A stretch of DNA of 31,324 nt, from positions 1 through 31,324 of IMG/VR virus record IMGVR_UViG_3300005914_000049; one strand, written 5' to 3'. Position 1 is the stretch's first letter; every line of letters begins with the position of its first letter. This document shows, piece after piece, positions 5,537-30,244 of this stretch. A program made the translations under genes and the position numbers. The stretch comes from a virus. Below the pieces are notes generated by a model. It saw nothing but the letters and a program-made list of their open reading frames with translations, was not told the DNA's origin and did no database searches.

Positions 5537-7969
5537 TTAAATTAATCCGCTTAACCGTTTTAAATCTTCTGCTGTTGTTTCGCCGTGTTTCTTTTTCTTC
5601 TGGTCAGTTACTGAATTAATAAATTCCTCACTGGCATCACCGCCCAAGTTTTCCATTGTCATGTCACCAAAGTCTAATAACTTTAATAACTCTGGATTTG
5701 CATCCTGTAGATACTTGTAAACTGCTGGTCTACCACAACTGTCTGATCCTTGCTTATCGGCAATGTCTTGTAATCCTGCGTTTAACTCTTCATTGTCGAT
5801 AATGCCCGTAAGTGCTGTAATAGCATTACTGCCATCTTGACCTACAGGAAGGTGTTGTCCTATCAGCTTTTGTAGTTCAACATGATCTTCCGCTTCCGCC
5901 ACATTTTGCTCTTCATTTTGTTTATTAGCAGGTGCTATCTTGTCTGCTATGCCTTGTCTAAACTTGTTAAACATTTTCTTGCCTGACTGCAAACCTTTCT
6001 GAATCCCCATGCTCATTTTATAAGCAGGTGTTTGTGTTAATACAGGATCTCTGTGTGGGTCATAACCTGCTGGTGCATCACCAGCACCTTCCATTTTGTT
6101 ACCAGCCTTAAGTTCTTCATGCCAGTTATCTGCTAGTTCACTTGCCACAGCTCTACGTACTGCTGGCGAGAACATCTTAAAGCCATCATTTGCACCGTAA
6201 TCTTTGCCATATTTTCTAGCACCGGTGTCTGCATAGTACTTCCAAAGTGTTTTGGCTTTGTCATGATCATATACGCCTTTGTCCCACTTCTTAGTGAGGT
6301 TACGCATAATAGGCTCGCCTTGCATTTGATATAATTGGCCATCGTTTTCGATGTATAGCACAAGTTCACGTATTGGATCTTCGTCAACTTCATCGTCTTC
6401 TTCAATTACACTGTCTGCCCAGTCTGCATATTCATCTAGCTCTGAACCTTTACCCTTAACACCCTGAAACATATCTGCTAATTTATAAGCATAACTCTCC
6501 GAGTCTGAACGATTATCCATGCGATCTGCAACAAAGTTTAATGCTTTGGTGAATACTGCGTTATCATCACCTGAGTCGTCATCGAACGGGGCATATTCGC
6601 TATTCATCCAATCATTGAACAACTCTTTAATATCGTTATTAGATCCTTCAGCAACTTGACCTCCCTTAATCGACTTAACACCTTTAATATATTGCTTGGC
6701 AAGTTGCACAGCCATACCATATTCTTCTTTTAAAGATTCGTCAACTTGTTCTTCAATAGTGTTAAGGCGAGATGCCCATTTGGTTGCAAACTCTTTAATT
6801 GCTCCGTCTGCTTGATCTGACACTTGCTCTAGTACTGTTCTTAATAATGCTTTTGTGTCGACAAACCTTAATGATTCAAAGTAAGCCTTGTTGCCGTGTG
6901 TTTTACCTAATTGAACAGACTCATCTGAACGCACAAATTCATGCACTTGTTGTAACTGCTCTGACATATTCTTACTCCATACTTTGTGCGCACTGTATAC
7001 ATGCGGCAATGCTGATTCTAATTTTTCTGGGAAGCTCTGTTGTATAAACTTTTCTTTAACAGTGTCTGCATTAAACTCATCTAGTTCTTTAACTTGTGGG
7101 TTAAATGCTTCTGCAAATTTACTATAGCCTTTAGGGCCTGTTAAACTATTGAGAGTTGCCCTCACACCTTGGTATCTGTCAACCGAGGCTTCCATCATTT
7201 CCTTAGTTTCTCTATTCTCCCAGGGTTTGTTTTTCATTAGTCTAACAAATTGGCCCAAATCTGCCATCTCTTCAACTAGCTCTACAATATGTGTTCCCAA
7301 CTCATCGCCGACACCGCCACCATTCATTAAGTGTCTAGCCATGGCTCTTGCACCTACCAATTTAATAAATGGTAGTTTAAATCTTTCACCTGATTGAGTT
7401 TCTAAGAAAACTGCTGATATATTCCTTGCTCTTGCGCCATGCTTTTCTTCATCAATATTTTTAGCATGTCTAACAATAATTTTAACAGGATTCTGGCCTT
7501 CTCGTGCTACCATTTTTTGGTAACTACTTTTCTTGCTACCATATAACTTGCTTTCTGTGGCAATTTGATTAAGCTCTGATTTATCGTAAACGTCGACGTT
7601 GGTGGCCATATCTTTAATCTCTTTTTTTGTTAATGCGGATCTTGTTATATCTCTAGTATCGAACCTCAGCATGTTTCTACGTGAAAAACTGCGTAGTGCC
7701 TTTAAAAACTTGTACCATGATGGACGATCTTCTTCGTCCATCTTCTTACTGATACGTCTATTAAAGAATACTTTTAGACTGTCACCATCATTAATACTAA
7801 TGGTAACATTACCGTAATTTTTACTTCCTAGTTTAAAATCAAAATTAAAGAAGCGCCCATCTTCTAAGATACTAGTAGGCTTTGCTGATTCATCAGATAT
7901 AGCAATTTCGCCAAATCTGTTCTTTAATTTGTCGTATAATCCTTGCGCTATTGGTTCAATTTCGCTCAT
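5537..7969 (-). CDS. 810-aa phage protein of unknown function, possibly virion-associated
   Basis: I do not recognise a catalytic domain. The protein is hydrophilic, rich in Lys, Glu and Asp, with several long helical stretches and no signal peptide or membrane segment. The N-terminal 120 residues mix short strands and basic segments; near 210-230 a Gly-rich stretch follows KLVGARAMARHLMNGGG. The middle is acidic. The last residues end in DLKRLSGLI, a short motif that recurs in the putative head-protein genes further right, which hints that this is also a packaged or head-associated protein. Its late promoter core ends exactly 5 nt before the ATG and there is no ribosome-binding site. It lies between terL and gene 32 on the same strand. 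Reality of the gene is clear; function is open. Confidence 0.75.
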   Translation of the reverse strand: MSEIEPIAQGLYDKLKNRFGEIAISDESAKPTSILEDGRFFNFDFKLGSKNYGNVTISINDGDSLKVFFNRRISKKMDEEDRPSWYKFLKALRSFSRRNMLRFDTRDITRSALTKKEIKDMATNVDVYDKSELNQIATESKLYGSKKSSYQKMVAREGQNPVKIIVRHAKNIDEEKHGARARNISAVFLETQSGERFKLPFIKLVGARAMARHLMNGGGVGDELGTHIVELVEEMADLGQFVRLMKNKPWENRETKEMMEASVDRYQGVRATLNSLTGPKGYSKFAEAFNPQVKELDEFNADTVKEKFIQQSFPEKLESALPHVYSAHKVWSKNMSEQLQQVHEFVRSDESVQLGKTHGNKAYFESLRFVDTKALLRTVLEQVSDQADGAIKEFATKWASRLNTIEEQVDESLKEEYGMAVQLAKQYIKGVKSIKGGQVAEGSNNDIKELFNDWMNSEYAPFDDDSGDDNAVFTKALNFVADRMDNRSDSESYAYKLADMFQGVKGKGSELDEYADWADSVIEEDDEVDEDPIRELVLYIENDGQLYQMQGEPIMRNLTKKWDKGVYDHDKAKTLWKYYADTGARKYGKDYGANDGFKMFSPAVRRAVASELADNWHEELKAGNKMEGAGDAPAGYDPHRDPVLTQTPAYKMSMGIQKGLQSGKKMFNKFRQGIADKIAPANKQNEEQNVAEAEDHVELQKLIGQHLPVGQDGSNAITALTGIIDNEELNAGLQDIADKQGSDSCGRPAVYKYLQDANPELLKLLDFGDMTMENLGGDASEEFINSVTDQKKKKHGETTAEDLKRLSGLI

Positions 7970-7974
7970 AAATC

Positions 7975-7982
7975 TATTTATC
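7975..7982 (-). promoter_or_regulatory. Late promoter core, leaderless type
   Basis: The minus strand reads GATAAATA, then GATTT, then the ATG of the 810-aa gene. With T4 geometry (core at -13 to -6) transcription would start on the A of the ATG. Confidence 0.6.
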
Positions 7983-7990
7983 TAAAAAAT

Positions 7991-9553
7991 TTAAAAGATC
8001 ACAAAGGGCATAGGAAACTCTAGACTGTCATTATGGTCTCTCAACGCTGTGTCTAGACTAGCATCGTATGTTTGCAATCCCTGCATCATGCGGGTTATCA
8101 ATACCAAACTCATTACTAAGTCATCTGTTTCACCAGTCTTGGCAGCATAACTGCCACCATGTGCCACAAATGTTTTTAATTCACTAATTAAATTTTTGCT
8201 ATGTACTTTTAGTTTTTTGCTCTCTATTAGGCTCTTTAACTTAGCGCATGCGGCTAGTTTATTACGTGCAGTAGTATTAAACCCTTTTCTAAATCGACTA
8301 GAGTTCCCATGAGATCTGGACTCAGTAAGGAATGTTCCTGCAATATTTTCCTCTCCTATTTCGGCAATGCTTACTAATGCGGCTTCGCCAATAGAGTTGT
8401 TTTCTATGCTGTAGTATATGTTATTCTTGTTAACTGTTTCTGCTAGAAAACTTGTAATCTGTTGTAGTAGTTTAACTTGCTGTTGGATCGGTGTTCTGTT
8501 ATTTTGCCACTCACCCACCTGTTCTAATGTGGGCAACTCATATATTTGTATAGCGGAGTAATCGCCACCTGTTCCCAAACTAGGATCTAAACTGAGAACA
8601 TAAGTTTTGTCTTTTTCAGGATGTTTAAACCAGCGTACTTGTCCTTGCTTGAACACAGGCTCTTTAAACTCCAACTCTATTAGAGTAGTTGGTGCTATAA
8701 GAGTTTCGTCATAGATTAAGAACTCTAGCCCATGTTCTCGTCTAAACCTATCTTCACCAATACGCCCTATTTCCTCTTGTTTCCACTGCTCATCCCTGTC
8801 AGGATGTTCCCACCATTCAGACCTAAATGCTCTAAAACCGTTTACGCCTACTTCCTGTTCATTACCAAACTCATCAATGTTCTTGTTTGCTTGTTTCCAT
8901 ATAAATGCAAACTGATCTTCATCTGAGTTAGGTGTTGATGTAATAATAGCCTTACCACCAGTACTAAGTGTGGGTGATATGGACGTCCAAAACTCACGGG
9001 CAATAGTAGGCCTCACAAATGCAAACTCGTCTGAGTATAATAATGATATAGACATACCTCGACCAGTGTTCTCAGTTGTAGACATTGCCACGATACGTGA
9101 CCCGTTGTCAAAGTCAATACTTCCTTTGTTATAACTGGTAACACCTGCACGTATATGATTGGGTACAGACTCATACGCATACCTGATACGTTGCATAATC
9201 TCTTGAGCACCTGCATACTTGTGGGCGGCCACTAGTATTGTGCTGTCTGGCACAAACATTGCATACCACAACAGGTACCCAGCGGCAGTGGTTGTTTTAC
9301 CAGTTTGTCTTGGCATCAGAGAAACACTAAATCTATAATCGTTGTAGGTAGATATTAAGCGCTTTTGAAACTCAAAAGGTTTGTACAACAACTTACCTCT
9401 TGTAGGATGCTGTATATAAAAGTAGTTGCTCATAAAATATTCGCAACCAGTTTTGCCATTCATACAAGTCATGAGTTCTTTTATCTGAGGCTTAGTAAAG
9501 GTTTCTTGTTTATGTGCGGCTTTAATTAAAACGCCGTCGAGCGACTTAGACAT
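7991..9553 (-). CDS. 17: Terminase large subunit gp17
   Basis: This 520-aa protein is the DNA-packaging motor. The N-terminal ATPase has Walker A MPRQTGKTT (about residues 80-88), Walker B LLYSDEFAF and a coupling motif TSTPNSDED. The C-terminal RNase H-like nuclease shows the metal-binding strand LSLDPSLGTGGDYSA. It translocates DNA into the prohead and cuts the concatemer. A longer reading frame to 9634 exists, but the late promoter core (9559-9565) lies inside it and the ATG at 9553 begins exactly 5 nt after the core, so I chose 9553. It has no Shine-Dalgarno. The ATG of the divergent HNH gene lies at 9609. Unlike in T4, the small subunit is not adjacent but 4 kb away. Confidence 0.95.
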   Translation of the reverse strand: MSKSLDGVLIKAAHKQETFTKPQIKELMTCMNGKTGCEYFMSNYFYIQHPTRGKLLYKPFEFQKRLISTYNDYRFSVSLMPRQTGKTTTAAGYLLWYAMFVPDSTILVAAHKYAGAQEIMQRIRYAYESVPNHIRAGVTSYNKGSIDFDNGSRIVAMSTTENTGRGMSISLLYSDEFAFVRPTIAREFWTSISPTLSTGGKAIITSTPNSDEDQFAFIWKQANKNIDEFGNEQEVGVNGFRAFRSEWWEHPDRDEQWKQEEIGRIGEDRFRREHGLEFLIYDETLIAPTTLIELEFKEPVFKQGQVRWFKHPEKDKTYVLSLDPSLGTGGDYSAIQIYELPTLEQVGEWQNNRTPIQQQVKLLQQITSFLAETVNKNNIYYSIENNSIGEAALVSIAEIGEENIAGTFLTESRSHGNSSRFRKGFNTTARNKLAACAKLKSLIESKKLKVHSKNLISELKTFVAHGGSYAAKTGETDDLVMSLVLITRMMQGLQTYDASLDTALRDHNDSLEFPMPFVIF

Positions 9554-9558
9554 ACTAA

Positions 9559-9565
9559 TATTTAC
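9559..9565 (-). promoter_or_regulatory. Late promoter core for terL, leaderless type
   Basis: The minus strand reads GTAAATA, then TTAGT, then ATG. The 5-nt spacer predicts a transcript that starts at the start codon. Confidence 0.6.
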
Positions 9566-9581
9566 CAGTGTTCCATGGAGT

Positions 9582-9589
9582 GTTAAATA
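9582..9589 (+). promoter_or_regulatory. Late promoter core for the first HNH gene
   Basis: The sequence GTTAAATA is followed 19 bases later by the ATG at 9609, with AGAAAGGG as a weak ribosome-binding site. It lies back to back with the terL promoter, about 17 bases apart. Confidence 0.5.
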
Positions 9590-9608
9590 CTTTTTAGAAA
9601 GGGTTTTT

Positions 9609-10136
9609 ATGTCACACACCTTGCTTCTCAACAAAGATTACAATCCAATATCAGTACTTCCTCTCTCAGTTATACACTGGCAACACTCTATTAAGTTAAT
9701 GTTTTTAGGACGCATCCAAGTGTTAGAAACATATAATGACTGGCATGTACACAGTGAAAACCTTACATTAAATGTACCTAGTGTTGCAGTTACCAAAGAA
9801 TACTTTAACCCAAGACATTATGTAAGATTTAGTAGAGCTAACGTATACTTGCGTGATTTATTCCAATGCCAATACTGCCAGGATACATTTGACTTTGAGG
9901 ACTTAACTATCGATCATGTTATACCCAGAAGCAAAGGTGGCAAATCTTCATGGACTAACGTAGTTACTAGTTGTAAAAAATGCAATTATGCTAAAGCAGA
10001 CAAACTAATAAAACCCATACACAAACCATACGAACCAGACTACTGGAGACTGGCATCAAAGTGGCGCAATAGTCCTATTAAAATTAAAGATCCTAAGTGG
10101 GAAAAGTATTTAGGTGCTGGTAGGCGAGTTGCTTAA
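9609..10136 (+). CDS. HNH endonuclease
   Basis: This 175-aa protein has a C-terminal HNH nuclease fold (about residues 85-135): CQYC, then LTIDHVIPRSKGG with the conserved D-H pair, then TNVVTSCKKCNYAKAD with the second zinc CxxC. The N-terminal half (LLLNKDYNPISVLPL) is typical of a stand-alone phage and bacterial HNH family. It cuts DNA in a metal-dependent way and could be a free-standing homing endonuclease or a packaging accessory, as HNH genes often neighbour terminases. It is on the opposite strand to its neighbours and its stop overlaps the convergent small gene by four bases. No intron is seen in the flanking genes. Confidence 0.85.
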   Translation: MSHTLLLNKDYNPISVLPLSVIHWQHSIKLMFLGRIQVLETYNDWHVHSENLTLNVPSVAVTKEYFNPRHYVRFSRANVYLRDLFQCQYCQDTFDFEDLTIDHVIPRSKGGKSSWTNVVTSCKKCNYAKADKLIKPIHKPYEPDYWRLASKWRNSPIKIKDPKWEKYLGAGRRVA

Positions 10137-10324
10137 TAAGGCTTTTCTTTTGTGAGATATGGTCTGCTGAACCAAAGTTTAAACCATTCAGGTGTGCCTG
10201 GCTGGATATTTTTCTTACGCATTATCTTAGCCTTTTCAGTACCGGTATGGCTTATGTTTTCCATATCCATACAAGATGTTTTTTCTCTGATACCTGCTAA
10301 TTTTTGTAGTTCAGATATCTTCAT
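10133..10324 (-). CDS. Small unknown phage protein with LQKLAGI start motif
   Basis: This 63-aa protein starts MKISELQKLAGI and ends with a conserved-looking tail, PGTPEWFKLWFSRPYLT. I recognise no domain. The start motif ELQKLAGI resembles IKRLSGL in the 322-aa gene and LKRLSGL at the end of the 810-aa protein, suggesting a common targeting role. It closes the run of small genes 10133-13737 and its end overlaps the end of the convergent HNH gene by 4 bases. Confidence 0.6.
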   Translation of the reverse strand: MKISELQKLAGIREKTSCMDMENISHTGTEKAKIMRKKNIQPGTPEWFKLWFSRPYLTKEKPY

Positions 10325-10340
10325 TATCGGCCATTAGCTA

Positions 10341-10499
10341 TTATACTGCTATTGGTAATGCGACTAATGACATTCTTGGACCAATTGAGTGTTCTCCGAA
10401 AGCAGAAGATGCTCTAATGTCTATTGTTTGTCCTGCGGTAATTGTTACCACACTATCAATTAAATCTAATACGCTTCTAATTAAGTCGGTTGCGTTCAC
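10341..10499 (-). CDS. 52-aa small protein, GTG start coupled by GTGA overlap
   Basis: A GTG at 10499 overlaps the stop of the upstream 102-aa gene (GTGA, 10496-10499) and opens a frame of 52 codons ending at TAA 10341-10343. The product starts with a short amphipathic helix (ATDLIRSVLDLIDSV) followed by strands. The frame fills the space between two real genes with the same 4-base coupling seen elsewhere in this run, which argues that it is translated. No homologue is recognised. Confidence 0.5.
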   Translation of the reverse strand: MNATDLIRSVLDLIDSVVTITAGQTIDIRASSAFGEHSIGPRMSLVALPIAV

Positions 10500-10804
10500 G
10501 AGTAATCTACCTCAGATTCTAACTTCCAACCTTTGTTGATAACTTCTTCTCTGCCACTACTATGTACTACTGTTATTGGTCCAGGTCCTATATAAGTTTG
10601 GGTTACTAGATAGTCTGAACCGCTTAACGGTCTTGACTCTTTGGTCATAAAACCCAGTCTAATAAGATCACCAAACGAATTACTATCACGTGACCAACCT
10701 GAAGGAGTTACCAATGGTGCTTTATTTGCTTCGATCTCAGCTTTAAGTTCTTCTGGTGTTAACTTAGTACCCTCTGCCTCAGTTAAAAATTCATTTGCTC
10801 TCAC
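10496..10804 (-). CDS. Putative internal head protein, CTS-like N-terminus (102 aa)
   Basis: The protein starts MRANEFLTE, which fits the pattern of the T4 capsid targeting sequence (MKTYQEFIAE in IPI): Met, basic residue, then (E/D)-aromatic-aliphatic-x-Glu. FLTE would match the gp21 prohead protease preference (L/I-x-E). The rest is small, soluble and unrecognised, with a glycine-rich middle and a strand-rich C-terminal half. It overlaps the upstream gene by ATGA and the next by GTGA. Being a packaged protein is inference. Confidence 0.6.
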   Translation of the reverse strand: MRANEFLTEAEGTKLTPEELKAEIEANKAPLVTPSGWSRDSNSFGDLIRLGFMTKESRPLSGSDYLVTQTYIGPGPITVVHSSGREEVINKGWKLESEVDYS

Positions 10805-11157
10805 TTGTTTTTCCTTTTTACTGCATCACGTGGTTGCATCGGGCTAACACTTTGTGTGTCGGTAGGTTCATAACTGCCGTTGCTGGTAGTTTGTTCTGAT
10901 GAAAGCCCTAATTTTTTAAGAGCTTTATTAATAATTTCTTCTTCTTGTTTAGTATAACATAGTGTTACTGGTCTATTGTTAAGTTCATGCATCCCGTTAC
11001 CAATATCGTCTGGGCTACTAGCCATTGCTAGTCCAAATCTATACAGTCCATACCCTTGATCAATACGTGGGAATGTCTTAGCACCAGGTATAGCCCTCTC
11101 CTGGTAGTCTAAGACTTTTCCTTGTTTAATCTCTGTTATAAAGTCTTTTACTCTCAT
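10801..11157 (-). CDS. Putative internal head protein, CTS-like N-terminus (118 aa)
   Basis: It starts MRVKDFITEIKQG, again a close match to the T4 capsid targeting peptide, with a possible cleavage after ITE. The middle contains a short ordered region (YGLYRFGLAMASSP, then CYTKQEEEIINKALKKLG). The tail is low-complexity, with Ser, Thr, Pro and Lys. I recognise no family. It is separated by two bases from the upstream gene and overlaps the next by ATGA. Confidence 0.6.
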   Translation of the reverse strand: MRVKDFITEIKQGKVLDYQERAIPGAKTFPRIDQGYGLYRFGLAMASSPDDIGNGMHELNNRPVTLCYTKQEEEIINKALKKLGLSSEQTTSNGSYEPTDTQSVSPMQPRDAVKRKNK

Positions 11158-11159
11158 AA

Positions 11160-12176
11160 TTATATAATTTTACTTACTGGCGTTGTGGACCACATACGGC
11201 AGGACCAATAACGTGCTTTAGTTCTGTCGCTGGCTTTTGGTGTACCACAACCATGTCTTGCTCTAAACGACTTTCTACGCTTAGGATCGTCACGTTTAAT
11301 TTCCATGTTCTTATCACCAAAATTAACTTTCTTAACGTTACCTGTCTTCTTATCTTTTACATAGACCTTATACTTGGCCACATCGCCACGCATTGGCTTA
11401 CCGAGGTTAACTTCACGACCTTGATATTCTGCTTCGTCTAACTCATCACCGTCTTCTACCACATTGTCATACGATTGTTTTGATTCCATCATCTTCATTG
11501 CAAGTTCTGCAAGTTTAGTTATGTCTAGATCTTCCATCTTTTTCTTATTTGTATCATTTACTTTATTGTAAATCTGACTGATTGCTGATGCTGTAAACAT
11601 ATCAACCATAATGCCATCAATCTTCATTGCTTGTTGTTTGGACACAATGTCTTTTATCTTAGTAATGTTGTTAGACGCTTCACTAAGATCTGCTTCCATC
11701 TTCTTTTCTTTAGAGCGGTGACCAAATGTTCTATGTACAAGGTCATCTATTGCTTTGTGAAAATCAACTTCTTCTGCTTCATAATCTTTAAGTTCTTTAA
11801 ATGCGTCATGGGCCCGACCGGCTAGAGTTATTACATTAGGTTTTCTCATTTCATCTAAATCAAACTTTTCCTTAGCATCTAATTTAGACATATTGTACTT
11901 GTCCTGAAACTCTTTGTCAGTAAGCTCTTCTATGTCAAGAAGTAGGTCTTTTACCTTGCCTTCGGTGACTGTGTCCTCTTCTTCAATTAAATCTAAACCT
12001 TCTAGCAGTGATATTCCACGTTCATCATATTCAAGAACAAGTTTATCCTCAGTAGATTCTAACACATCTGCTTCAATAGCAAGTTCTTCGTTAATTACGA
12101 TATCAAATATATCACCCACTTGCGGTCTAATATGTCCTTGCTCTGACTCTGTAAAATATTCTGCTAGTTTTTTCAT
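11160..12176 (-). CDS. 338-aa putative head-associated protein with basic Cys C-terminal motif
   Basis: It starts MKKLAEYFTESEQ, a looser CTS-like peptide. The middle is acidic and helical. The last 80 residues form a distinct basic module: YKVYVKDKKTGNVKKVNFGD, then RRKSFRARHGCG and RTKARYWSCRMW, with two conserved-looking cysteines. I recall this module at the C-terminus of several proteins in marine T4-like phages but know no function for it; DNA or capsid binding is a guess. It overlaps the upstream 322-aa gene by ATGA. Confidence 0.65.
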   Translation of the reverse strand: MKKLAEYFTESEQGHIRPQVGDIFDIVINEELAIEADVLESTEDKLVLEYDERGISLLEGLDLIEEEDTVTEGKVKDLLLDIEELTDKEFQDKYNMSKLDAKEKFDLDEMRKPNVITLAGRAHDAFKELKDYEAEEVDFHKAIDDLVHRTFGHRSKEKKMEADLSEASNNITKIKDIVSKQQAMKIDGIMVDMFTASAISQIYNKVNDTNKKKMEDLDITKLAELAMKMMESKQSYDNVVEDGDELDEAEYQGREVNLGKPMRGDVAKYKVYVKDKKTGNVKKVNFGDKNMEIKRDDPKRRKSFRARHGCGTPKASDRTKARYWSCRMWSTTPVSKII

Positions 12177-13141
12177 TTTTTAACGCCTGCTAATTCTGCT
12201 TGATATGCTTTCCAAAGTTTGTTTTCAACTACGTCTACTTCTTCAGTAGCCATTGGGTTGTCACCCAACTTTGCTTTATCTGCGTATTGCTTAGACTTGG
12301 CATGTAAGTCATTGCCTTGGTCTATAACATCTGAAACACTGTATGTTGTAGTCTCTTTTGTTCCCTGCCCTGGCTTGTTAGCAAGTTCATCTAACTCTAC
12401 TTTGCCTTTTAACCCAGCAAGTGAAAGTAAGTCAGCAAGCTCTGCTAGTCCTTCTTCAACATCGCCCTTCTTTTTAGCAATAGCGGCTTTAATGGCGTTA
12501 CCTCTAGCGGCTAAGTAATCATTGCTGTCGATGTCTCCATCTCCATCATGATCTTTTTTCTCGCCTTCCATTTCAACAGACTCGACGAGTTTTCTAATGC
12601 TTTTTAGTTCCCAACCCATGTTCTCACGCTTACATCTTGCTTTAACGTCAGCTTCTGATTCGCCCTCGTCTGCTACCATGCGAACGCCTCTTGTCGTTTT
12701 GTCCTTAGTAAGTTTGCAATGGTAGTGTTTCTTTTCGGACTTGTCTACTTTGCCCTTCGTGTCTGCTCTTACACCACTTGCTTTCTCTACTTGTTCTTCT
12801 ACATCTTCGTCTGACTTTTTGCCTTTTTTAGCATCTAGCATCTTTTGAAATGCCGCTTTCTGTGCTGGGCTTTGTTCTTCAGTAACTACTTCTTCATCTG
12901 AGTCAGTAGATTCGTCAACCTTATACTCAGTCATTGCGCCTGCACTGTTTTCGTATGTGTTAGCTAAACCTGATAATCTTTTAATGTCTTCTAACCAAGT
13001 AAGGTCTTTCTGTCTTTCCTCGGCTTGGACGTCTTCTTCGTTGTTACTCACGCTATTCTCCTCGATTTCGTTTAAGCCTTCCTTGGCCATTTTTGTTGCT
13101 ATTGCATGCGTTTCGTCTTTTGTAAGTTCTCGTTTATTCAT
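12173..13141 (-). CDS. 322-aa acidic protein with EF-hand-like calcium loop
   Basis: The product is very acidic and of low complexity, with few strands. One clear element is DHDGDGDIDSND at 197-208, which fits the 12-residue calcium-binding loop (Asp at 1, 3, 5, 7, 9 and 12; Gly at 6). The motif DIKRLSGL (52-59) and the variant DLLSLAGL (237-244) match the short motif seen in two other proteins here. It has two Cys-containing segments around residues 142-170. It lacks the CTS-like start. Its start is 5 bases after the stop of the 196-aa gene. Function unknown; a packaged or scaffold-like role is possible. Confidence 0.6.
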   Translation of the reverse strand: MNKRELTKDETHAIATKMAKEGLNEIEENSVSNNEEDVQAEERQKDLTWLEDIKRLSGLANTYENSAGAMTEYKVDESTDSDEEVVTEEQSPAQKAAFQKMLDAKKGKKSDEDVEEQVEKASGVRADTKGKVDKSEKKHYHCKLTKDKTTRGVRMVADEGESEADVKARCKRENMGWELKSIRKLVESVEMEGEKKDHDGDGDIDSNDYLAARGNAIKAAIAKKKGDVEEGLAELADLLSLAGLKGKVELDELANKPGQGTKETTTYSVSDVIDQGNDLHAKSKQYADKAKLGDNPMATEEVDVVENKLWKAYQAELAGVKK

Positions 13142-13146
13142 GACAC

Positions 13147-13737
13147 TTACCTAGCAGAACTTTTATGCTCTGGCTTCTTATTTGCATTTGCAGTAGATCC
13201 CATAGGACTCTGGACACCCATCGGAAGGTCGTTTGTGGTTTTACCCCGCTCAGTATTAGGATCTGCATACTCATGTTTAATACTAGGCTCTAGGTCTTTC
13301 AACATGCTGTTCTTAAACTTTTCTGTACCATATTCACTGTTGTCTGACTTGTCATAATCTTTTCCTAATAGAGCACCATCTGATTCTTGCCCTTGATCAG
13401 CGACATAGGACTCGTCTTGACCTTTGGTATACACAAGCAAATCTGCTTCGTTAATACCAGCTCGTTGTTTCAGCATTTCTTTAAGTTGTGGTGGTGTTAC
13501 AGGCATACGTACACTTGCGTCAATAATGTATACTTCAATAGGTCCTCTATTAGGAAATTCGCCTGGATGTTCTTTAACTGGTAGCCTTTTTGGCTTACCC
13601 ATAGATACCATGTCGTATGCTTTTAGTACATTCTCCATAGCATCTAGGTTGTCTTTGTCAGGCTCGCAACACAATTTAATTTTAAAATCGTATGTCTTAT
13701 CTGCGGCCTCTGTTAAGTAATCTATAAATGTTTTCAT
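13147..13737 (-). CDS. Putative internal head protein with the best CTS match (196 aa)
   Basis: It begins MKTFIDYLTEAADK, which agrees with the T4 targeting peptide MKTYQEFIAE at Met1, Lys2, Thr3, the aromatic at 4 and Glu10 and is similar at 7-8. Cleavage would follow LTE. After that comes a compact segment of about 90 residues starting YDFKIKLCCEPDKDNLDAM with strands and helices, then a disordered tail rich in Ser, Asp, Lys and Pro. The gene is first in its transcription unit: a late core at 13755-13761, a predicted 12-nt leader, and AAGGACC as ribosome-binding site. Confidence 0.65.
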   Translation of the reverse strand: MKTFIDYLTEAADKTYDFKIKLCCEPDKDNLDAMENVLKAYDMVSMGKPKRLPVKEHPGEFPNRGPIEVYIIDASVRMPVTPPQLKEMLKQRAGINEADLLVYTKGQDESYVADQGQESDGALLGKDYDKSDNSEYGTEKFKNSMLKDLEPSIKHEYADPNTERGKTTNDLPMGVQSPMGSTANANKKPEHKSSAR

Positions 13738-13754
13738 GATGGGTCCTTATGTCG

Positions 13755-13761
13755 TATTTAG
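13755..13761 (-). promoter_or_regulatory. Late promoter core for the internal head-protein run
   Basis: The minus strand reads CTAAATA, then a predicted start near 13749 and a short leader with AAGGACC before the ATG at 13737. It likely drives the chain of coupled genes down to 10133. Confidence 0.55.
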
Positions 13762-13776
13762 CACGGTTTGTAAGTT

Positions 13777-14259
13777 TTATTTGTTGTTCTTGAGTATTTC
13801 TTGGAGCAATGCATTTCTATCTAACACTACACCTTTGCCTTCTATTTCAGCGTCTTCGTTAGTGCCACCTTTCTGATTTTGCTGGTCTAGACGCATTTTT
13901 TTAATCTGCAAGTCCACAGTTCTTAATTTGCGATCCAGTTTAACCTGTTTGGCAGTAATAGCATGTCCTAGCAACTGACTGGCGGTTTGAAATATGTTAC
14001 CGCTGAAGCGACTATCAACATTCATACCAAGATCCATTAGATCGTTGAATTTGTCTGTCGCTAAGTCTGCTAGGGCATCTAACTCTCTATCGCTGGTATC
14101 ATCTAGGTCTCTAACCCTAGGTAGTGCTATGTCTATCTTGTCAATTGCACTATTAATATCATCAATAAACGCCTTCCTTACCGGGATAGACTTTTCTGAT
14201 TCTTCTTCTGAAACGTCATCAGTAGTAATATTAAATATCTCTTCTAACTTTTTTGTCAT
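13777..14259 (-). CDS. 16: Terminase small subunit gp16
   Basis: From the ATG at 14259 the protein is 160 aa, close to T4 gp16 (164 aa). It starts MTKKLEEIFNI. The central helical region reads ALPRVRDLDDTSDRELDAL, DLMDLGMNVDSRFSGNIF and LGHAITAKQVKLDRKLR, as in gp16 of marine T4-like phages, where this coiled-coil part forms the oligomeric ring that feeds DNA to gp17. A longer frame to 14301 has no promoter or ribosome-binding support. The late core 14265-14271 ends exactly 5 nt before the chosen ATG. It follows gp4 with a few bases between. Confidence 0.8.
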   Translation of the reverse strand: MTKKLEEIFNITTDDVSEEESEKSIPVRKAFIDDINSAIDKIDIALPRVRDLDDTSDRELDALADLATDKFNDLMDLGMNVDSRFSGNIFQTASQLLGHAITAKQVKLDRKLRTVDLQIKKMRLDQQNQKGGTNEDAEIEGKGVVLDRNALLQEILKNNK

Positions 14260-14263
14260 ACTT

Positions 14264-14698
14264 TTATTTACTGCGTCCATTGTGGAACAGTTCATTTTCA
14301 CCCAGTATGCGGAATACTATTCCGTAGTGATTGCACCACGTTTCTGCGGCTTGCCACTTTGCCTGATTAATGACCCAGGCTACTTTATTACGCTGACTGC
14401 GAGTTTTTTCAAACAGTGTTTGATTACTGGGTTTTATTTCAATTAACTCTTTGTGGTTCTGTTTGTTCCTATCTATATATTCTATTAAAAAGTCTGGCAC
14501 GTATATTGTTTGCTTGTTTTTAACAGGATTAAAGTAAGGTATTTTAACAGGCTCACTGGCCCAACTTATAACACTAGGATTAGTGTCGCAGAACATCATA
14601 AAACGTTGTTCCCAACTACTGCGGTAAGTTGGTAATTGTCTGCCTAAATATTTTTTTGCGTTTTTTGGATGAAATTTGCCTTGTGCATATTTGGTCAT
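14264..14698 (-). CDS. 4: Head completion protein gp4 (TnsA-like nuclease fold)
   Basis: The 144-aa protein aligns by eye with T4 gp4: YAQGKFHPKNAKKYLGR, then YRSSWEQRFMMFCDTNP, then WASEPVKIPYFNPV, YVPDFLIEY and ELIEIKPSNQT. The last three segments give a PD-(D/E)xK-like nuclease signature (E in SSWE, D in PDF, ExK in IEIKP). In T4, gp4 is needed to complete DNA-filled heads. It overlaps the upstream gene by ATGA, and its stop codon lies inside the late promoter core of terS. Confidence 0.85.
   Translation of the reverse strand: MTKYAQGKFHPKNAKKYLGRQLPTYRSSWEQRFMMFCDTNPSVISWASEPVKIPYFNPVKNKQTIYVPDFLIEYIDRNKQNHKELIEIKPSNQTLFEKTRSQRNKVAWVINQAKWQAAETWCNHYGIVFRILGENELFHNGRSK
14265..14271 (-). 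promoter_or_regulatory. Late promoter core for terS, leaderless type
   Basis: The minus strand reads GTAAATA, then AAAGT, then ATG. The TAA stop of gp4 (14264-14266) is built into the core. Confidence 0.6.
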
Positions 14699-15057
14699 AC
14701 CAAAATAGTGCGTAAGACATATGGATTTTGATTTCCTGGATTACTTATGCCAAGATAACTAGTTCCCACACGAGTATTATTAAGGAAAAAAGCTAAAAAC
14801 GCATCTAACTCTATGGTATTTGCTTTTTTAATGTAATCAAATAATTCGTTAAACGAGATGTCTTGCTGGGATGAGCCTTGTATAATTGCTCCTGCTAAGT
14901 TCTCAGCGGACTCTTTGTTCGCTGTTCTTTTCATAAGCAATCCAATTAGTGCTTCGTATTGGTTGTCAGTAACGTAGCCTTCCTTAACAAAAAAGTTTTT
15001 AAAGTAATTGGGCGTAGATTCTGCTTTAAGGTTGGGTAAATTGGATGGTATTGCCAT
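14695..15057 (-). CDS. Unknown small structural-region protein (120 aa)
   Basis: The protein is soluble and mostly helical, with FKNFFVKEGYVTDNQYEALIGLL near the start and FNELFDYIKKAN in the second half; the C-terminus is strand-like (TSYLGISNPGN). I do not recognise it. Its place between the gp54-like gene and gp4 suggests a virion or assembly role. AAGGAT eight bases upstream serves as the ribosome-binding site. It ends in an ATGA overlap with gp4. Confidence 0.6.
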   Translation of the reverse strand: MAIPSNLPNLKAESTPNYFKNFFVKEGYVTDNQYEALIGLLMKRTANKESAENLAGAIIQGSSQQDISFNELFDYIKKANTIELDAFLAFFLNNTRVGTSYLGISNPGNQNPYVLRTILV

Positions 15058-15066
15058 TTGAAATCC

Positions 15067-16320
15067 TTATATAGTTCTAATGTTAGATGCTTGTCCTGCC
15101 GCTCTGTTTATTTGTTCATTGCGGCGAGCATCTTTGTTCTCAGCAAAACTGTTGTCTGATCCTACATTTTGTCCTGCAGGACTTGAGCCGACTATATCAC
15201 TATTCGACGAGCTGGAAGGTGTAGACTTGCCCTCGCTTGGGCCAAATTTATCGACTAAGTTGCTGACTGAAGGAAAGAAGTATTTTCCCTGTGTGTTGTT
15301 GCCACGCAATACGTCTGTGGCTAAGCCTGTGATGTCCCTTAGGGCTGTTTTTTTAAGATCAGCATTTTTAAAAGTATCACGAGCCCTATATGCATCTAAG
15401 GCGGCACTTAAGAAGTTACCAGATGCAATCTTATCACCTATACCGCCAATGGTGTTAAACACACCACCTTTGCCTATAATAGTATCTCTGCCACCCAATG
15501 ATTGTAGTGGACTCGGAACAGTATCATAATGTATAATACCAAACCCTCTAACTTGGTCACTTGTTACTATGCCTTCTCCAATGTACCTAATTTGTTCAGG
15601 CATCACCGTCATTGTGCTAGACATAAAGGACTCACCTGAGTAATTATGATTGCCATGTTTAAATGATTGTATTATGGGGTTTTCCACAACATAATGTGTA
15701 AAAGTCTTTTGACTTAAACTATATACATTTATCCTAGCAATAAAGTTTCCCTGTACGTCTCCAGCTTGGCTATAACCCCATTTGTCAGTTGTTCTATTAC
15801 CATATACACTTAAACTGGGATCATATACAGCATTCTCGTGGTCATCGTCTCTAAAGTAATGTTTAAGGTAAAGCTCATGAAACTTTTTTGTTAAGTTAAT
15901 CGTGTCGTCGTGAAATTCTATCGTAACAGGATCGTAATTAACTTTAGTCTGAATGTTTACTTTTCTGTTATACGCATGTAACTGCTCTGTATCATAAGCA
16001 AATCCAGGCAATGTTACATTTTTTGCCAACATACCCAACTCTATGGATTCTTCGTTGGTCAATGGATTAAATGCTGGGTTTAGCTCTATGTTAACATGGA
16101 ACAGAGCACTGTGTTTTGGAGCCAGCGCAAAGTTGTTGTCTCCAAACATTCGTTGTCCGTGTTTGAAGTCCTTAATATAATCAGCAGTAGTTGCGGCGTC
16201 TGCTAAACTTTTAAATTGCTTTCCCAAACTGTCAGTAACATTTAACCCAGTGCCTGCTTTAATAACAGAACTAGCTGATCCTAACGCTTTTTGGAATACT
16301 CCAGATAATAAATTTGCCAT
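15067..16320 (-). CDS. Baseplate/tail-tube initiator protein, gp54-like (or gp48-like)
   Basis: This 417-aa protein has a tube-protein-like core near residues 75-260: LFHVNIELNPAF, LAKNVTLPGFAYDTEQL, NYDPVTIEFHDDTINLT and NPIIQSFKHG, the pattern of proteins sharing the gp19 fold that cap the baseplate and start the tube. In T4 these are gp48 and gp54. The N- and C-terminal parts are Gly/Ser/Ala-rich and variable. It lies directly after the tail tube gene, beyond a terminator. The late core ends 5 nt before the ATG and no ribosome-binding site is present. I cannot separate gp54 from gp48 by eye. Confidence 0.65.
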   Translation of the reverse strand: MANLLSGVFQKALGSASSVIKAGTGLNVTDSLGKQFKSLADAATTADYIKDFKHGQRMFGDNNFALAPKHSALFHVNIELNPAFNPLTNEESIELGMLAKNVTLPGFAYDTEQLHAYNRKVNIQTKVNYDPVTIEFHDDTINLTKKFHELYLKHYFRDDDHENAVYDPSLSVYGNRTTDKWGYSQAGDVQGNFIARINVYSLSQKTFTHYVVENPIIQSFKHGNHNYSGESFMSSTMTVMPEQIRYIGEGIVTSDQVRGFGIIHYDTVPSPLQSLGGRDTIIGKGGVFNTIGGIGDKIASGNFLSAALDAYRARDTFKNADLKKTALRDITGLATDVLRGNNTQGKYFFPSVSNLVDKFGPSEGKSTPSSSSNSDIVGSSPAGQNVGSDNSFAENKDARRNEQINRAAGQASNIRTI

Positions 16321-16325
16321 ACTAT

Positions 16326-16334
16326 TATTTATCC
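16326..16334 (-). promoter_or_regulatory. Late promoter core for the gp54-like gene, leaderless type
   Basis: The minus strand reads GGATAAATA, then ATAGT, then ATG. It begins two to three bases after the U tract of the gp19 terminator. Confidence 0.6.
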
Positions 16335-16336
16335 AT

Positions 16337-16361
16337 AAAAAAACAGGGGTTTTATACCCTG
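16337..16361 (-). terminator. Rho-independent terminator after gp19
   Basis: On the minus strand CAGGG, an 8-base loop and CCCTG are followed by seven T. It begins 28 bases after the gp19 stop. Confidence 0.85.
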
Positions 16362-16388
16362 CTTTTTAATTCTGCTAAAATACTAAAA

Positions 16389-17006
16389 TTAACCTGTAAT
16401 TGTCTGACCTATTGTTCTTCCAACCAATGTACCAATACCAGTTCCAAGTGGAGTCTGTATTGCGTTGTCAAAACTAATTGTCATCTGAATACTTATTGGT
16501 TCATCACTACCGTATGATACATCACCGTATGCTACGTTAGTTAAAAAGCAGCCATACAGTTCCCAGGTCTCTAATGATGTTGGAGTAAATGCACCATTAC
16601 CACCATCTAATATTTCACATCTTGTAATAAACTTGTAGTCAATGCCTGATGCCGCACTAGACTGTTCCATAAAGTCATATTGCTTTTGCATCTGCTCGCC
16701 AACTAGTTTGGAAACATTACCCTGGGCGTCATCACGCAGGTTAACTGTGGTTGTCTCCCAGGTCGGGCGTCCACCTAAGTAAATTCTAGAGTTATAAATT
16801 GGAATTTCCATACGTTCTTGTGAAACTGTTGGTCGCATAAAATCTATAACTTGTTTTGTTAGCTCACTACGTGGAGTTGTAATGCCAAAGTTTTCAAAGC
16901 TCACTCTAAAGCGATACTTTAATTTTGGCATCAACAAGCCTTGTGTACTTGCTGATTGGTCACTAGCTAAAGGTACCGTAAATTTGTTTAAACTTGCTAC
17001 TGCCAT
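16389..17006 (-). CDS. 19: Tail tube protein gp19
   Basis: The 205-aa protein fits the T4 tail tube family (163 aa in T4): YRFRVSFENFG, then MRPTVSQERMEIPIYNSRIYL, a WETTTVNLRDD strand, FITRCEILDGG and the closing TISFDNAIQ. Hexamers of it stack to form the inner tube. The extra length lies mainly at the C-terminal GTGIGTLVGRTIGQT tail. AGGAGAC precedes the ATG and a late core lies upstream. A terminator follows. Its position after gp18 is the usual T4 order. Confidence 0.9.
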   Translation of the reverse strand: MAVASLNKFTVPLASDQSASTQGLLMPKLKYRFRVSFENFGITTPRSELTKQVIDFMRPTVSQERMEIPIYNSRIYLGGRPTWETTTVNLRDDAQGNVSKLVGEQMQKQYDFMEQSSAASGIDYKFITRCEILDGGNGAFTPTSLETWELYGCFLTNVAYGDVSYGSDEPISIQMTISFDNAIQTPLGTGIGTLVGRTIGQTITG

Positions 17007-17028
17007 TTTTCTGTCTCCTAATTAGTAG

Positions 17029-17036
17029 TATTTATC
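17029..17036 (-). promoter_or_regulatory. Late promoter for gp19
   Basis: The minus strand reads GATAAATA. The core and 3' flank ATAAATACTACTAATTA are identical to the gp18 promoter. The predicted leader is 17 nt and contains AGGAGAC. Confidence 0.65.
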
Positions 17037-17050
17037 GTATACTACTGCAT

Positions 17051-17076
17051 TAATGAGAGCCTAGTGGCTCTCATTA
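17051..17076 (-). terminator. Perfect 11-bp hairpin between gp18 and gp19
   Basis: TAATGAGAGCC and GGCTCTCATTA are separated by a 4-base loop. No U tract follows on the minus strand, so it is more likely an mRNA 3'-end stabiliser, a processing site or a weak terminator behind gp18. Confidence 0.5.
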
Positions 17077-17090
17077 TATGCGTACTTTAA

Positions 17091-20000
17091 TTATACACTA
17101 GTTCCTGCAATCTCACCTGTGTTCTTCAATCTAATTGGAACAAAGATAAATTCAGCAGACTTAACTGGCTCAATAGCAACGTCTACGTATAGTTCGTTTC
17201 TATCAATCCTAACTGGTGTGTTGTTTGTTTCATCACATACAACAACATAGTCGCTTAATGCTCTCTTAGCAACCAAGTCGTTACATAACTGTTCGACGAT
17301 TTGTTTAATTTCGTCTCTAGTTAACTTGTCGTTGGGCTCAAACACAAACGGTTTTGCTAATGTGTTTAAGTTAGTTCTCATATAAACAACAAGTCTTGCA
17401 ACATTAATTCTATCAAGTGAACTTGGTGCGTTTGGATCACGTGTTTTTTGACCATAAATTGTTAAACCAATTCCTGGAAGGAATGTAATTGGATTAATCT
17501 TATTTTCATATAGACTATCTCTTACACCTTCTGTTAAGCCTGCTAACACAAACTCACCAGTGGATGAACTAACATAACCAAGTTGTGTGGCGTTGTCAAC
17601 TAGACCTCGTTTCGTACCTGCTGGTGCAAACCAAGGGAAGCTCACATCGTCACTTCTGATCATTGTGCGTAATGCCATATGACTTGGTGGAACAACAATA
17701 GTGCTACCTGATAAATCAGTACTCTGTCCTGATGGATAATATAACCCAACATAGGCATCAGTTGATGTTGCGCCTTCGCCGAACCATGTGCCAGTGTTAT
17801 TATTATAGTTGCTTATTTCAGTAGCACTTGGGGCAAGTCTAATTGGGGTGTCTGCAACAATAAATGCGGTGTTACGTCTATCGTTATTTAGACTAATCAT
17901 ATTAGCAGTTAACTCTTCATAGCCAGGAGCGGCAATTAAGTTATATACCTGTTGCTCTTCTCTGATCTCTGTGTTACTGTCTAATGCAGACTTCATTGCG
18001 GCTACCACAACCTGTCTGACTGCTTTTCTACCCATGTAAGGTGAGCCGTCTGACTTGTTGCCTGCCTTATTAACCCAAGCATCTTTAATTGTTGGTAAAG
18101 ATCCTGCAAAGTCATCTGAATTAAAGTAGTCGTTCTTAAACTCTTTAACTAAGTAACCACTTCTACGTGTATTAAACAATAAAGTTCCACGTGGATAAAG
18201 TGCGGCACTTGGAACATCTAAGTCTGTATAGTTAGATGCCAACAAACTTGTAATTAGTGGGATGTCACCAGTAATTGGATTTGTTGTTCCGTCTGTGTCC
18301 CAACGTGCATCTGCAAACAAAATACCGTTCTCTGATGTTTGATCTGAATTATCAATCAATGTCCAATTAGAATCAGTAGCATCGTATCTGTAAAGGTTAG
18401 GATAGTTCTCTAAATCGCTTGTATCTAACCAAAGGTCTCCACTTACTAGTGCTGATGCATCTGACTGTGCAATTGGTTCACTTGCGGCGACAATAACACC
18501 ATCTGGATCAGTAGCAGTTAAATCATAGCCCCTTGCATCAGCGGCTAGTGTCTGGTACCCTTTCCAGTCTGTCCCGTTATGTATCATAATGTCAACATCA
18601 TCAACAGCGTTATAGTACCAAAGTGTACCTGTTACAGGATCTGCGCTTGGTACTGCTAAACTTGCTGTGTATGTTAATGGGATCCAGTTACTTGCAACCA
18701 AGTCTGAATTATTTCCCGCTTTAACGTTTGATAATGAAGTTGTAATACCAGCAGTTGTTAACGGTGTTCCTGCAGTATTCTTTAATACTATAACGCCACC
18801 ACCTGTGTGGTTAATAACAATTTTACCTGCACTGTTTACACTAGCAGTAATTTGTGATAGTCCTAATGCTAGTAGATCTGACACCAAAGACGCCGCATCA
18901 GTACCACTTAGTGTAACTGTTTGTGCTGTGCTTAGTGTGCTACTGGCTGGCACACTCTGCTGAATAGTAAATGTGTTAGTGGCTGTTAGTACTGGGTTAG
19001 CAACACTACCTGTAATTGTGGTGCTACCAGTTGCTGAACGCTTATATAGCTTGTAAGTAGCTGAGTCATCTTCTAGTGCATCGTATTGTACGTAAACACT
19101 ACTAGCACCAATGTTTTTACCACCACCAGTAGCATCCAGAGTTGCGTTTGCTGACTGGTCGTTTTCGTAAACAGGAGCACTTACTGCTGAGAATGCATCT
19201 GTTGTGCTAGAGTAAACACTAGCGTCAAAACTTGCACCAACATTAGCAGTGGTTGTTTTAATCCAAACACTTCCTGTTGGTCTAGAAGCTGTATCGTTAG
19301 TCTTCCAAGTAGGAACACTTGTATGAGCTGTCTGAGCTAGTGCTGGTCTGTAGAACGTACCTGCTGTGATGCCTAAATCTGCTAATGGGGTTCCTACACT
19401 GTTACTAATAATAATTGCACCGTCTGCTGTACTGCCATCTGATGTTGTAGTGGCGTCTGCAAAAATATGCAGTATGCCGGTTGTGGCACTAGCGTATGCT
19501 GTAATACCAGTAACCGATGCAGTATTAATATCGCTTACCAAACTAGAAACTGTTGTTCCAGTTAACGTAACTGTTGAGCCGTTAATGATAACTGCGTTTG
19601 AAGAAGTTAGTGTTGGGTTAGCAGTTGTTGCCGCAATAGTTGGGCTAGAAGTCTGCCAACCTATGCTGCCTACTAGTACCCAAGTATTATTGTACTTCTT
19701 GTAGTAAATTGGATTGTTTGTATTTGTTGTAACCACGGCATAATCGCCAATGCTACCAATACTTGTTTTAGGTACACCACCACTTAAATCTGAGGTGCTT
19801 GCTAAAATTGTAGGCACTTTGTTAGTAAATGCCTGTGTAGCACTATTCCATTCAAAAATGCCCCATAGAGTGTCTGTTAAATCTAACCAATAAGTTCCAT
19901 TAGATGGGCTTCCAGTAGGACGTACTGTTGTTCCAACTAATTCGGCTGTGTTTACATTTGCTCTGATGCAATAAACTCTATTGGATACACCTAGTAAACT

Positions 20001-20291
20001 ATAAGCAGTCATCAATCCATATTCATTAATATCATAACCATGAATAGGGGTTCCTGAACTTGTCTTATAGAATGTTGGAGTACCGAATAGGCTTGTTAAT
20101 TCTCTCTGACTTGTAGCGGCTACTAACTTGCCTGCATTTGCGGCGGTAGTTGCTATTGCTGTTACGCTAGAAGTGTTTAATTTGTCCTGTGCTGTGGCTA
20201 AAACAATTAAAGGGATAGTCCCCAATTGATTTGGCGCATAGTTACTCTCGTCAGTAACAGTTACATCTACTCCAGGTGAAATTAATGCCAT
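17091..20291 (-). CDS. 18: Tail sheath protein gp18, enlarged
   Basis: This 1066-aa protein is the contractile sheath. The N-terminus MALISPGVDVTVTDESNY and the C-terminal third (LYENKINPITFLPGIGLTI, SSLDRINVARLVVYMRTNL, CDETNNTPVRIDRNEL) match T4 gp18 (659 aa). Between about residues 125 and 680 there is an insertion made of two repeat types: GTxW modules (GTYWLD, GSVWIK, GTLWYY, GDLWLD) and two copies of a strand-rich unit that ends GTPLxxLGIT or GTPLTTAGIT. These probably decorate the outside of the sheath. A TTG start at 20306 is unlikely because those codons hold the TGAGGAT ribosome-binding site; I use the ATG at 20291. Confidence 0.9.
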   Translation of the reverse strand: MALISPGVDVTVTDESNYAPNQLGTIPLIVLATAQDKLNTSSVTAIATTAANAGKLVAATSQRELTSLFGTPTFYKTSSGTPIHGYDINEYGLMTAYSLLGVSNRVYCIRANVNTAELVGTTVRPTGSPSNGTYWLDLTDTLWGIFEWNSATQAFTNKVPTILASTSDLSGGVPKTSIGSIGDYAVVTTNTNNPIYYKKYNNTWVLVGSIGWQTSSPTIAATTANPTLTSSNAVIINGSTVTLTGTTVSSLVSDINTASVTGITAYASATTGILHIFADATTTSDGSTADGAIIISNSVGTPLADLGITAGTFYRPALAQTAHTSVPTWKTNDTASRPTGSVWIKTTTANVGASFDASVYSSTTDAFSAVSAPVYENDQSANATLDATGGGKNIGASSVYVQYDALEDDSATYKLYKRSATGSTTITGSVANPVLTATNTFTIQQSVPASSTLSTAQTVTLSGTDAASLVSDLLALGLSQITASVNSAGKIVINHTGGGVIVLKNTAGTPLTTAGITTSLSNVKAGNNSDLVASNWIPLTYTASLAVPSADPVTGTLWYYNAVDDVDIMIHNGTDWKGYQTLAADARGYDLTATDPDGVIVAASEPIAQSDASALVSGDLWLDTSDLENYPNLYRYDATDSNWTLIDNSDQTSENGILFADARWDTDGTTNPITGDIPLITSLLASNYTDLDVPSAALYPRGTLLFNTRRSGYLVKEFKNDYFNSDDFAGSLPTIKDAWVNKAGNKSDGSPYMGRKAVRQVVVAAMKSALDSNTEIREEQQVYNLIAAPGYEELTANMISLNNDRRNTAFIVADTPIRLAPSATEISNYNNNTGTWFGEGATSTDAYVGLYYPSGQSTDLSGSTIVVPPSHMALRTMIRSDDVSFPWFAPAGTKRGLVDNATQLGYVSSSTGEFVLAGLTEGVRDSLYENKINPITFLPGIGLTIYGQKTRDPNAPSSLDRINVARLVVYMRTNLNTLAKPFVFEPNDKLTRDEIKQIVEQLCNDLVAKRALSDYVVVCDETNNTPVRIDRNELYVDVAIEPVKSAEFIFVPIRLKNTGEIAGTSV

Positions 20292-20321
20292 TGTAATAAT
20301 CCTCAATATGTTAATTAGTAG

Positions 20322-20330
20322 TATTTATTG
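20322..20330 (-). promoter_or_regulatory. Late promoter for gp18
   Basis: The minus strand reads CAATAAATA with the same 3' flank as the gp19 promoter. The predicted leader is 25 nt with TGAGGAT. Confidence 0.65.
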
Positions 20331-20375
20331 ATTATAAGCAAAATGGCACCTATTAGTCGCCCTTTTAAAGGTATC

Positions 20376-20384
20376 TATTAAATA
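20376..20384 (+). promoter_or_regulatory. Late promoter core for the second HNH gene, leaderless type
   Basis: The sequence TATTAAATA is followed by ACTAC and then the ATG at 20390, again a 5-nt spacer with no ribosome-binding site. The core is a weaker match than the others. Confidence 0.45.
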
Positions 20385-20389
20385 ACTAC

Positions 20390-20737
20390 ATGCAACGCAG
20401 AATATGCCCAGCCTGTAATAGGAACCAAGTAGCTGTAAACTACAAAAAACACGACAAGATTTACTATAGATCTAGGTGCGATTCTTGTATTAGGCTTCGT
20501 AGAAAAGAACCTTCAAAAATACCTGCGTGGCACCAAGCAGGATATAAGAAAAAGAGTCAATGTGAGAAGTGCGGATTCAACTCTAAAAGCAAGGCACAAA
20601 TTATGGTCTGGCACGTGGATGGAGATTTAGGCAACAACAATAAGAGTAACCTAATCAGTGTGTGTTTAAATTGCGGAGTTGATATAAGTAATATGAACCT
20701 AGGTTGGCGACCTAGTGAGATACTACCAGATTTTTAA
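20390..20737 (+). CDS. Small zinc-binding HNH-like endonuclease
   Basis: This 115-aa protein has four CxxC pairs: CPAC (6-9), CDSC, CEKC, and a final CLNC. The second half has WHVDGDLGNNNKSNLISVC, which resembles the HNH pattern H-x-D-G-x-x-x-N-N-x-x-N-L-x-x-L-C. It is probably a free-standing nuclease. It is on the strand opposite to gp18 and dNMP kinase, and its end overlaps the kinase gene by 26 bases in a convergent arrangement, which suggests late insertion into the structural region. Catalysis is not certain because only one His is in place. Confidence 0.65.
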   Translation: MQRRICPACNRNQVAVNYKKHDKIYYRSRCDSCIRLRRKEPSKIPAWHQAGYKKKSQCEKCGFNSKSKAQIMVWHVDGDLGNNNKSNLISVCLNCGVDISNMNLGWRPSEILPDF

Positions 20738-30237: not shown

Positions 30238-30244
30238 TATTTAC
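30238..30244 (-). promoter_or_regulatory. Late promoter for the short fibre gene
   Basis: The minus strand reads GTAAATA followed by CATGTAAC, shared with the gp13-like promoter. A 21-nt leader with AAGAGA, a weak ribosome-binding site, follows. Confidence 0.5.

Follow-up and report, generated by a model that had tools for sequence, protein, structure and literature searches.

Introduction

Leaderless translation is deemed marginal in most proteobacteria. A 31-kb virus record (IMG/VR IMGVR_UViG_3300005914_000049, 31,324 nucleotides, ~60% AT), analyzed here over its full length and termed the window, raises the question of whether phage late promoters can lie so close to a start codon that the mRNA is left without a leader. 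In front of five of its genes, the hexamer TAAATA stands exactly 5 nt before the ATG. The late promoter core of phage T4 spans −13 to −6 (PMC1524935), so that +1 is expected ~5 nt past the core. The original prediction therefore read these genes as leaderless, and expected a sharp peak at a TAAATA-to-ATG spacing of 5 in marine T4-like phages.

Results

All five sites were found as described, and no Shine-Dalgarno (SD) sequence was detected at these close-class starts (7969-, 9553-, 14259-, 16320-, 20390+). The cores, together with an intrinsic terminator beside one of them, are as follows.

7975..7980, minus strand: late promoter core TAAATA, 5 nt before ATG 7969 of the 810-aa head gene (5537-7969)
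9559..9564, minus strand: late promoter core TAAATA, 5 nt before ATG 9553 of terL (7991-9553)
14265..14270, minus strand: late promoter core TAAATA, 5 nt before ATG 14259 of the 160-aa phrog_16202 gene (13777-14259)
16326..16331, minus strand: late promoter core TAAATA, 5 nt before ATG 16320 of the 417-aa tail-tube-like/gp54-like gene (15067-16320)
16337..16361, minus strand: intrinsic terminator CAGGG-TATAAAAC-CCCTG-TTTTTTT, after the tail-tube gene and just upstream of the 16326-16331 core
20379..20384, plus strand: late promoter core TAAATA, 5 nt before ATG 20390 of the 115-aa HNH-like gene

TAAATA as such is depleted in the window (23 seen versus 41 expected). TAAATA-N5-ATG is enriched (6 versus 0.84 expected), and none of 100 shuffles reached six, which bears out the earlier judgment that the constant spacing was unlikely to be chance. 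Real genes lie behind 5/6 of these sites; the sixth (25002+) is antisense within a gene and was therefore counted as chance. The core for the 14259 start overlaps the stop codon of the upstream head-closure gene. Because the terminator adjoins the 16326-16331 core, a transcript starting past it would have no room for a longer, SD-bearing leader. The gene names first proposed were only partly correct. TerL is certain (phrog_36964, 2e-112), but the supposed terS is phrog_16202, a family of unknown function, and its identity is thus unproven; the 417-aa "gp54-like" gene matches tail-tube families, and the HNH match of the 115-aa gene is weak. For the 810-aa gene the match is to a head structural family, and in relatives the orthologous head-gene families fall mainly into the close class.

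The remaining late starts (13737, 17006, 20291, 24370, 30211 and 9609+) have spacings of 17-30 nt, corresponding to leaders of ~12-25 nt. An SD-like sequence was present at 5/6 by one count, 30211 being weak, in agreement with the leadered class originally described.

13755..13760, minus strand: leadered core, 17 nt before ATG 13737; AAGGA SD
17029..17034, minus strand: leadered core, 22 nt before ATG 17006 of the tail tube gene; AGGAG SD
20322..20327, minus strand: leadered core, 30 nt before ATG 20291 of the tail sheath gene; GAGGA SD
24390..24395, minus strand: leadered core, 19 nt before ATG 24370 of the head-tail adaptor gene; AGGA SD
9584..9589, plus strand: leadered core, 19 nt before ATG 9609 of the first HNH gene; the terL promoter diverges from it
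30238..30243, minus strand: leadered core, 26 nt before the in-frame ATG 30211; weak SD

The two HNH genes are neighbours of late genes on the opposite strand (9559-9609; 20322-20390), each with one TAAATA promoter divergent from that of terL or the tail sheath gene (cores ~20 and 52 bp apart, respectively). The structural region of this jumbo phage also holds two radical SAM genes and a neighbour (727-3346), and the radical SAM relatives in contig G001 are close-class late genes.

TerL relatives were taken from viral contigs, and the TAAATA-to-ATG distance was counted for ORFs of at least 80-100 aa, with gene starts set by a simple ORF rule and loci represented by partly overlapping contigs. 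Across 81 sequences (1.1 Mb), 25, 78, 51 and 9 starts lay at spacing 4, 5, 7 and 8, respectively, and 12 at spacing 9-16, followed by a second hump at 17-26. Such a peak was seen for 0/14 permuted hexamers; that of ATAAAT at 6 is the same motif, shifted. In a nonredundant set of 530 starts (one locus per 90%-identity TerL group, 90 relatives, plus the whole contig G001), spacing was sharply bimodal, with 278 starts at 3-8 nt (close), 15 at 9-15 nt (gap) and 237 at 16-35 nt (leader). The close class was modal in 75 of 147 gene families (gap 9, leader 63), so the bimodality does not rest on a few orthologues.

Kinship inflates pooled p-values, an effect from which single-genome counts are free. 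With each orthologue counted once, close/gap/leader starts numbered 24/1/32 in G001, 12/0/27 in G002, 31/1/59 in G007, 34/8/46 in G011 and 49/0/22 in G017, versus 1.2-8.5 close starts for control hexamers in the same single-record counts. G017, a 499-kb jumbo phage of 57% GC (contig of L427, IMGVR_UViG_3300049988_000286), contains 76 TAAATA-N4-ATG versus 0 for the reversed-pattern control and is the clearest case for 5′-end mapping. Its 578-kb relative G016 (contig of L376, IMGVR_UViG_3300046660_000488) differs in spacing, with 40 TAAATA-N5-ATG versus 0 for the reversed control and 15 at N4. The anticipated peak at 5 is therefore real but not alone: 4, 7 and 8 are peaks as well, in lineage-specific combinations.

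The sharp peak was expected in marine T4-like phages, but it is no general feature of these; the phages that show it form an assemblage of jumbo phages with kinship to PA5oct, RaK2 and Atu_ph07. The TerL of the window is nearest to those of the jumbo phages PA5oct (53.8%), Phosso and Atu_ph07, followed by the RaK2/121Q group, so the window is not a classical marine T4-like phage; identity to S-PM2 is 33%. Phages with the close class belong to the PA5oct/RaK2/Atu_ph07 jumbo group and are mostly uncultured. No start lies 4-8 nt from TAAATA in T4 or S-PM2, and 80 cyanophage-like contigs show no close class (7 starts at 3-8 nt versus a broad hump at 18-35). In PA5oct, Atu_ph07, Phosso, 121Q and RaK2, close starts are at background level. 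PA5oct, the nearest isolate, has 4 versus 5.0 in controls, and consequently no cultured phage is yet known in which the leaderless reading could be tested.

In the TerL tree, the clade of the window (78 tips) holds 243 close and 202 leader starts, and the close class also occurs in uncultured PA5oct relatives. It is absent from the Phosso/Atu_ph07 branch and present in the sister branch with G017. Whether it arose repeatedly or was lost in the isolates remains open, deep branches of the tree being weakly supported. In the RaK2-like G019 (contig of L492), TAAATA-N4-ATG occurs 0 times and TAAATA-N5-ATG 5 times (reversed controls 20 and 17), a deficit hinting at avoidance in that lineage.

Close starts and leadered promoters have the extended core GATAAATA in common, which is CTAAATA-like in G017. 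The preceding GA is shared by both classes (A 0.59, G 0.48-0.49) compared with other TAAATA copies (0.18 and 0.15). At −13, the core has G in place of the T of T4, a position known to vary (PMC1524935). Among the relatives (window excluded), most of the long ones encode a gp55-family sigma factor (phrog_12791), namely G001, G003, G007, G008 and G010-G019, as do the isolates; it was not found in G002 and G009 (both perhaps incomplete) or in some short fragments.

Base preferences downstream of the core resemble those of a start site. Among leader-class starts, 227/237 have their first purine, counted from position 4 onward, at position 4 or 5. The same rule applied to the close class predicts +1 at the A of the ATG for 41/41 starts at spacing 4 and 137/140 at spacing 5, and exactly 3 nt upstream for 49/56 at spacing 7 and 12/15 at spacing 8, the sequence there being TACTATG. 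Position 4 holds a purine at 3/140 sites of spacing 5, compared with 125/237 sites of the leader class, and few predicted leaders are 1-2 nt long. The pattern recurs independently in G011, where the peaks lie at 5 and 8. The placement of +1 is inferred from the T4 rule and these preferences, as transcript 5′ ends are not available for any member.

SD sequences accompany 7/278 close starts (2.5%) versus 128/178 (72%) at 16-25 nt; an earlier count gave 0/152 versus 61% in the leader class. Start codons were 175 ATG to 1 TTG for close starts versus 96:13 for leadered ones, and 43:4 versus 20:16 in G017 despite its 57% GC. A preference for AUG is expected from leaderless initiation in Escherichia coli (PMC9031893). 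The first 35 nt of close genes are weakly structured, as are those of the leader class.

A TAAATA near the AUG could act in translation rather than transcription, as an AU-rich enhancer or an S1 site that stands in for the SD in longer mRNAs, and it does occupy the SD position at starts without an SD. We consider this unlikely: the extended GATAAATA context is identical in leadered promoters, the purine and pyrimidine preferences suit a start site with offsets of 1-2 nt avoided, permuted AT-rich hexamers form no such peak, and the pattern persists in a 57% GC genome. Terminators also stand directly upstream of some close cores (12/187 versus 9/600 starts without TAAATA), with the T-run 9-14 nt away in 11/12, the 16320 gene of the window among them. 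Still harder to uphold is the idea that the promoters chiefly serve downstream operon genes, the first gene being poorly translated or coupled from upstream mRNAs. Some sites, such as 14259, do lie within gene clusters, but spacing would hardly be tuned to 0 or 3 nt, nor AUG be so nearly exclusive, unless translation of the first gene were under selection.

Mis-called start codons are a common type of annotation error, and a downstream start with its own SD would restore ordinary leaders. We give this very little credence, because an SD plus start codon was found within codons 2-15 in 0/191 close genes and within 30 codons in 3/191 (internal control 7/184), and because the TerL N-termini of the window and its relatives align from M1. 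The AT content of the window might suggest that TAAATA falls near ATG by chance in AT-rich upstream regions. This is scarcely conceivable given the shuffles of the window, is refuted by the genome counts for G017 (76:0) and G016 (40:0), and does not fit RaK2 and 121Q, which lack the close class although 121Q is 66% AT. The leaderless interpretation originally proposed is thus supported in the relatives by the sharp peak, the inter-class gap, the lack of SD, near-exclusive AUG and the lack of any alternative downstream start, with 5′ ends unmapped.

Leader mode followed gene identity. Close:leader counts by family were 0:37 for tail tube and 0:13 for tail sheath, versus 43:15 for terL, 38:6 for phrog_16202, 16:9 for the gp54-like gene and 58:20 for a large head-type family (Fisher p ~2e-25, uncorrected for relatedness). 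G001 has portal (spacing 7) and gp25-like wedge (spacing 4) genes in the close class, and leadered sheath, tube and fibre genes. The mode, as far as 5′ ends can be inferred, is gene-specific and broadly conserved: tube and sheath are leadered, whereas terminase, portal and similar genes are mostly predicted to be leaderless. It therefore plausibly sets protein dose, an inference made without having located the major capsid gene.

Discussion

Spacing, SD absence, AUG preference, the shared core, start-site bases, lineage distribution and gp55 in relatives can be read from the genomes. We regard it as very probable that they reflect gp55-type late promoters positioned for mRNAs with 0- or 3-nt leaders; the 5′ ends, leaderless translation and dosage role are inferred without RNA data. 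Host RNA polymerase carrying the phage gp55-type sigma would read TAAATA, within its extended context, as a T4-type late promoter and begin transcription at the first purine 4-5 nt beyond the core. At spacing 4-5, this would be the A of the AUG (0-nt leader), and at spacing 7-8 the A three bases before it (5′-ACU-AUG, 3-nt leader). With the core this near the start codon, an SD would not fit into close-class mRNAs, on which ribosomes would initiate in the leaderless manner at the 5′-proximal AUG; a second late class would keep leaders of 12-25 nt, most of them SD-bearing. Some close-class genes could also be reached by polycistronic read-through; that at 14259 overlaps the upstream gene.

Among the closest known systems are the T4 late promoters (gp55/gp33/gp45): the core is of the TATAAATA type and sits one turn ahead of +1 (only inferred here), a sigma of the gp55 family is encoded (here in relatives), and late structural genes are served on both strands. 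T4, however, lacks starts at 4-8 nt from TAAATA, the core here is GATAAATA, and a review of T4 late transcription does not mention leaderless messages. Leaderless expression is common in Thermus, the host of phage phiYS40, and we know of no use of T4-type late promoters by this phage. Its middle and late mRNAs are leaderless (PMC3594737); it resembles the phages studied here in expressing late genes from leader-free mRNAs, but the latter also use SD leaders. In Deinococcus-Thermus, a −10 element placed 6-7 bp ahead of the ORF yields leaderless mRNAs beside an RBS class (PMC12340547), but with a cellular sigma factor and in another phylum, in contrast to the phage late sigma here. The betaproteobacterium Burkholderia cenocepacia has natural leaderless mRNAs with a TA-rich promoter directly upstream (PMC4603805); these are a minor fraction of host genes, as opposed to about half of the promoter-adjacent late genes in these phages. 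In the open-access literature searched, we saw no description of leaderless mRNAs made from T4-type late promoters, nor of such a promoter giving leaderless mRNAs (5′ ends inferred here) in about half of the promoter-proximal late genes, beside an SD class.

A widespread group of giant phages thus appears to translate roughly half of its promoter-proximal late genes from leaderless messages, in a mode tied to gene identity. Exact 5′ ends can be predicted for hundreds of genes, which would improve start-site calling in these genomes and offers a large natural dataset on the requirements of leaderless starts (AUG, 0 or 3 nt, not 1-2). A further question posed by these phages is how initiation is reprogrammed during late infection.

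No TerL relative was found in GTDB genomes that would identify a host. The ribosomal protein bS21 of G001 (that contig only) is most like bS21 of Burkholderiales, among which leaderless mRNAs occur naturally (PMC4603805), and a proteobacterial host is likely for at least one member. Many long contigs of leaderless lineages encode bS21, but so do PA5oct, Phosso and Atu_ph07, all without the close class, which rules it out as a discriminating factor. Phage IF3 (G011, G014, G015, G018, G019, Phosso, Atu_ph07 and 121Q) occurs mainly in groups without the close class and is missing from most groups with it; G011 has both, so the link is only suggestive and IF3 does not discriminate either. A phage initiator tRNA found no support: the 27-tRNA array of G002 (L202:6558-15359) includes three tRNAs with CAU anticodons, elongator-like by inspection, and no tRNA genes were found in G001. 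That one promoter type feeds two late translation programmes, with leaders quantized at 0 or 3 nt and late ribosomes biased to leaderless initiation, perhaps via phage bS21 or manipulation of IF3, is a speculative and doubtful extension. The bS21 gene of G001 does not itself have a leaderless start, as the spacing-5 ATG begins a mini-ORF of merely 8 codons that runs into the bS21 start. At this site (L188:15876-15912, contig of L055), the TGA of the mini-ORF overlaps the bS21 ATG after TAAATA-N5-ATG; this may be chance, or the mini-ORF may encode a leader peptide, itself leaderless, that is coupled to bS21.
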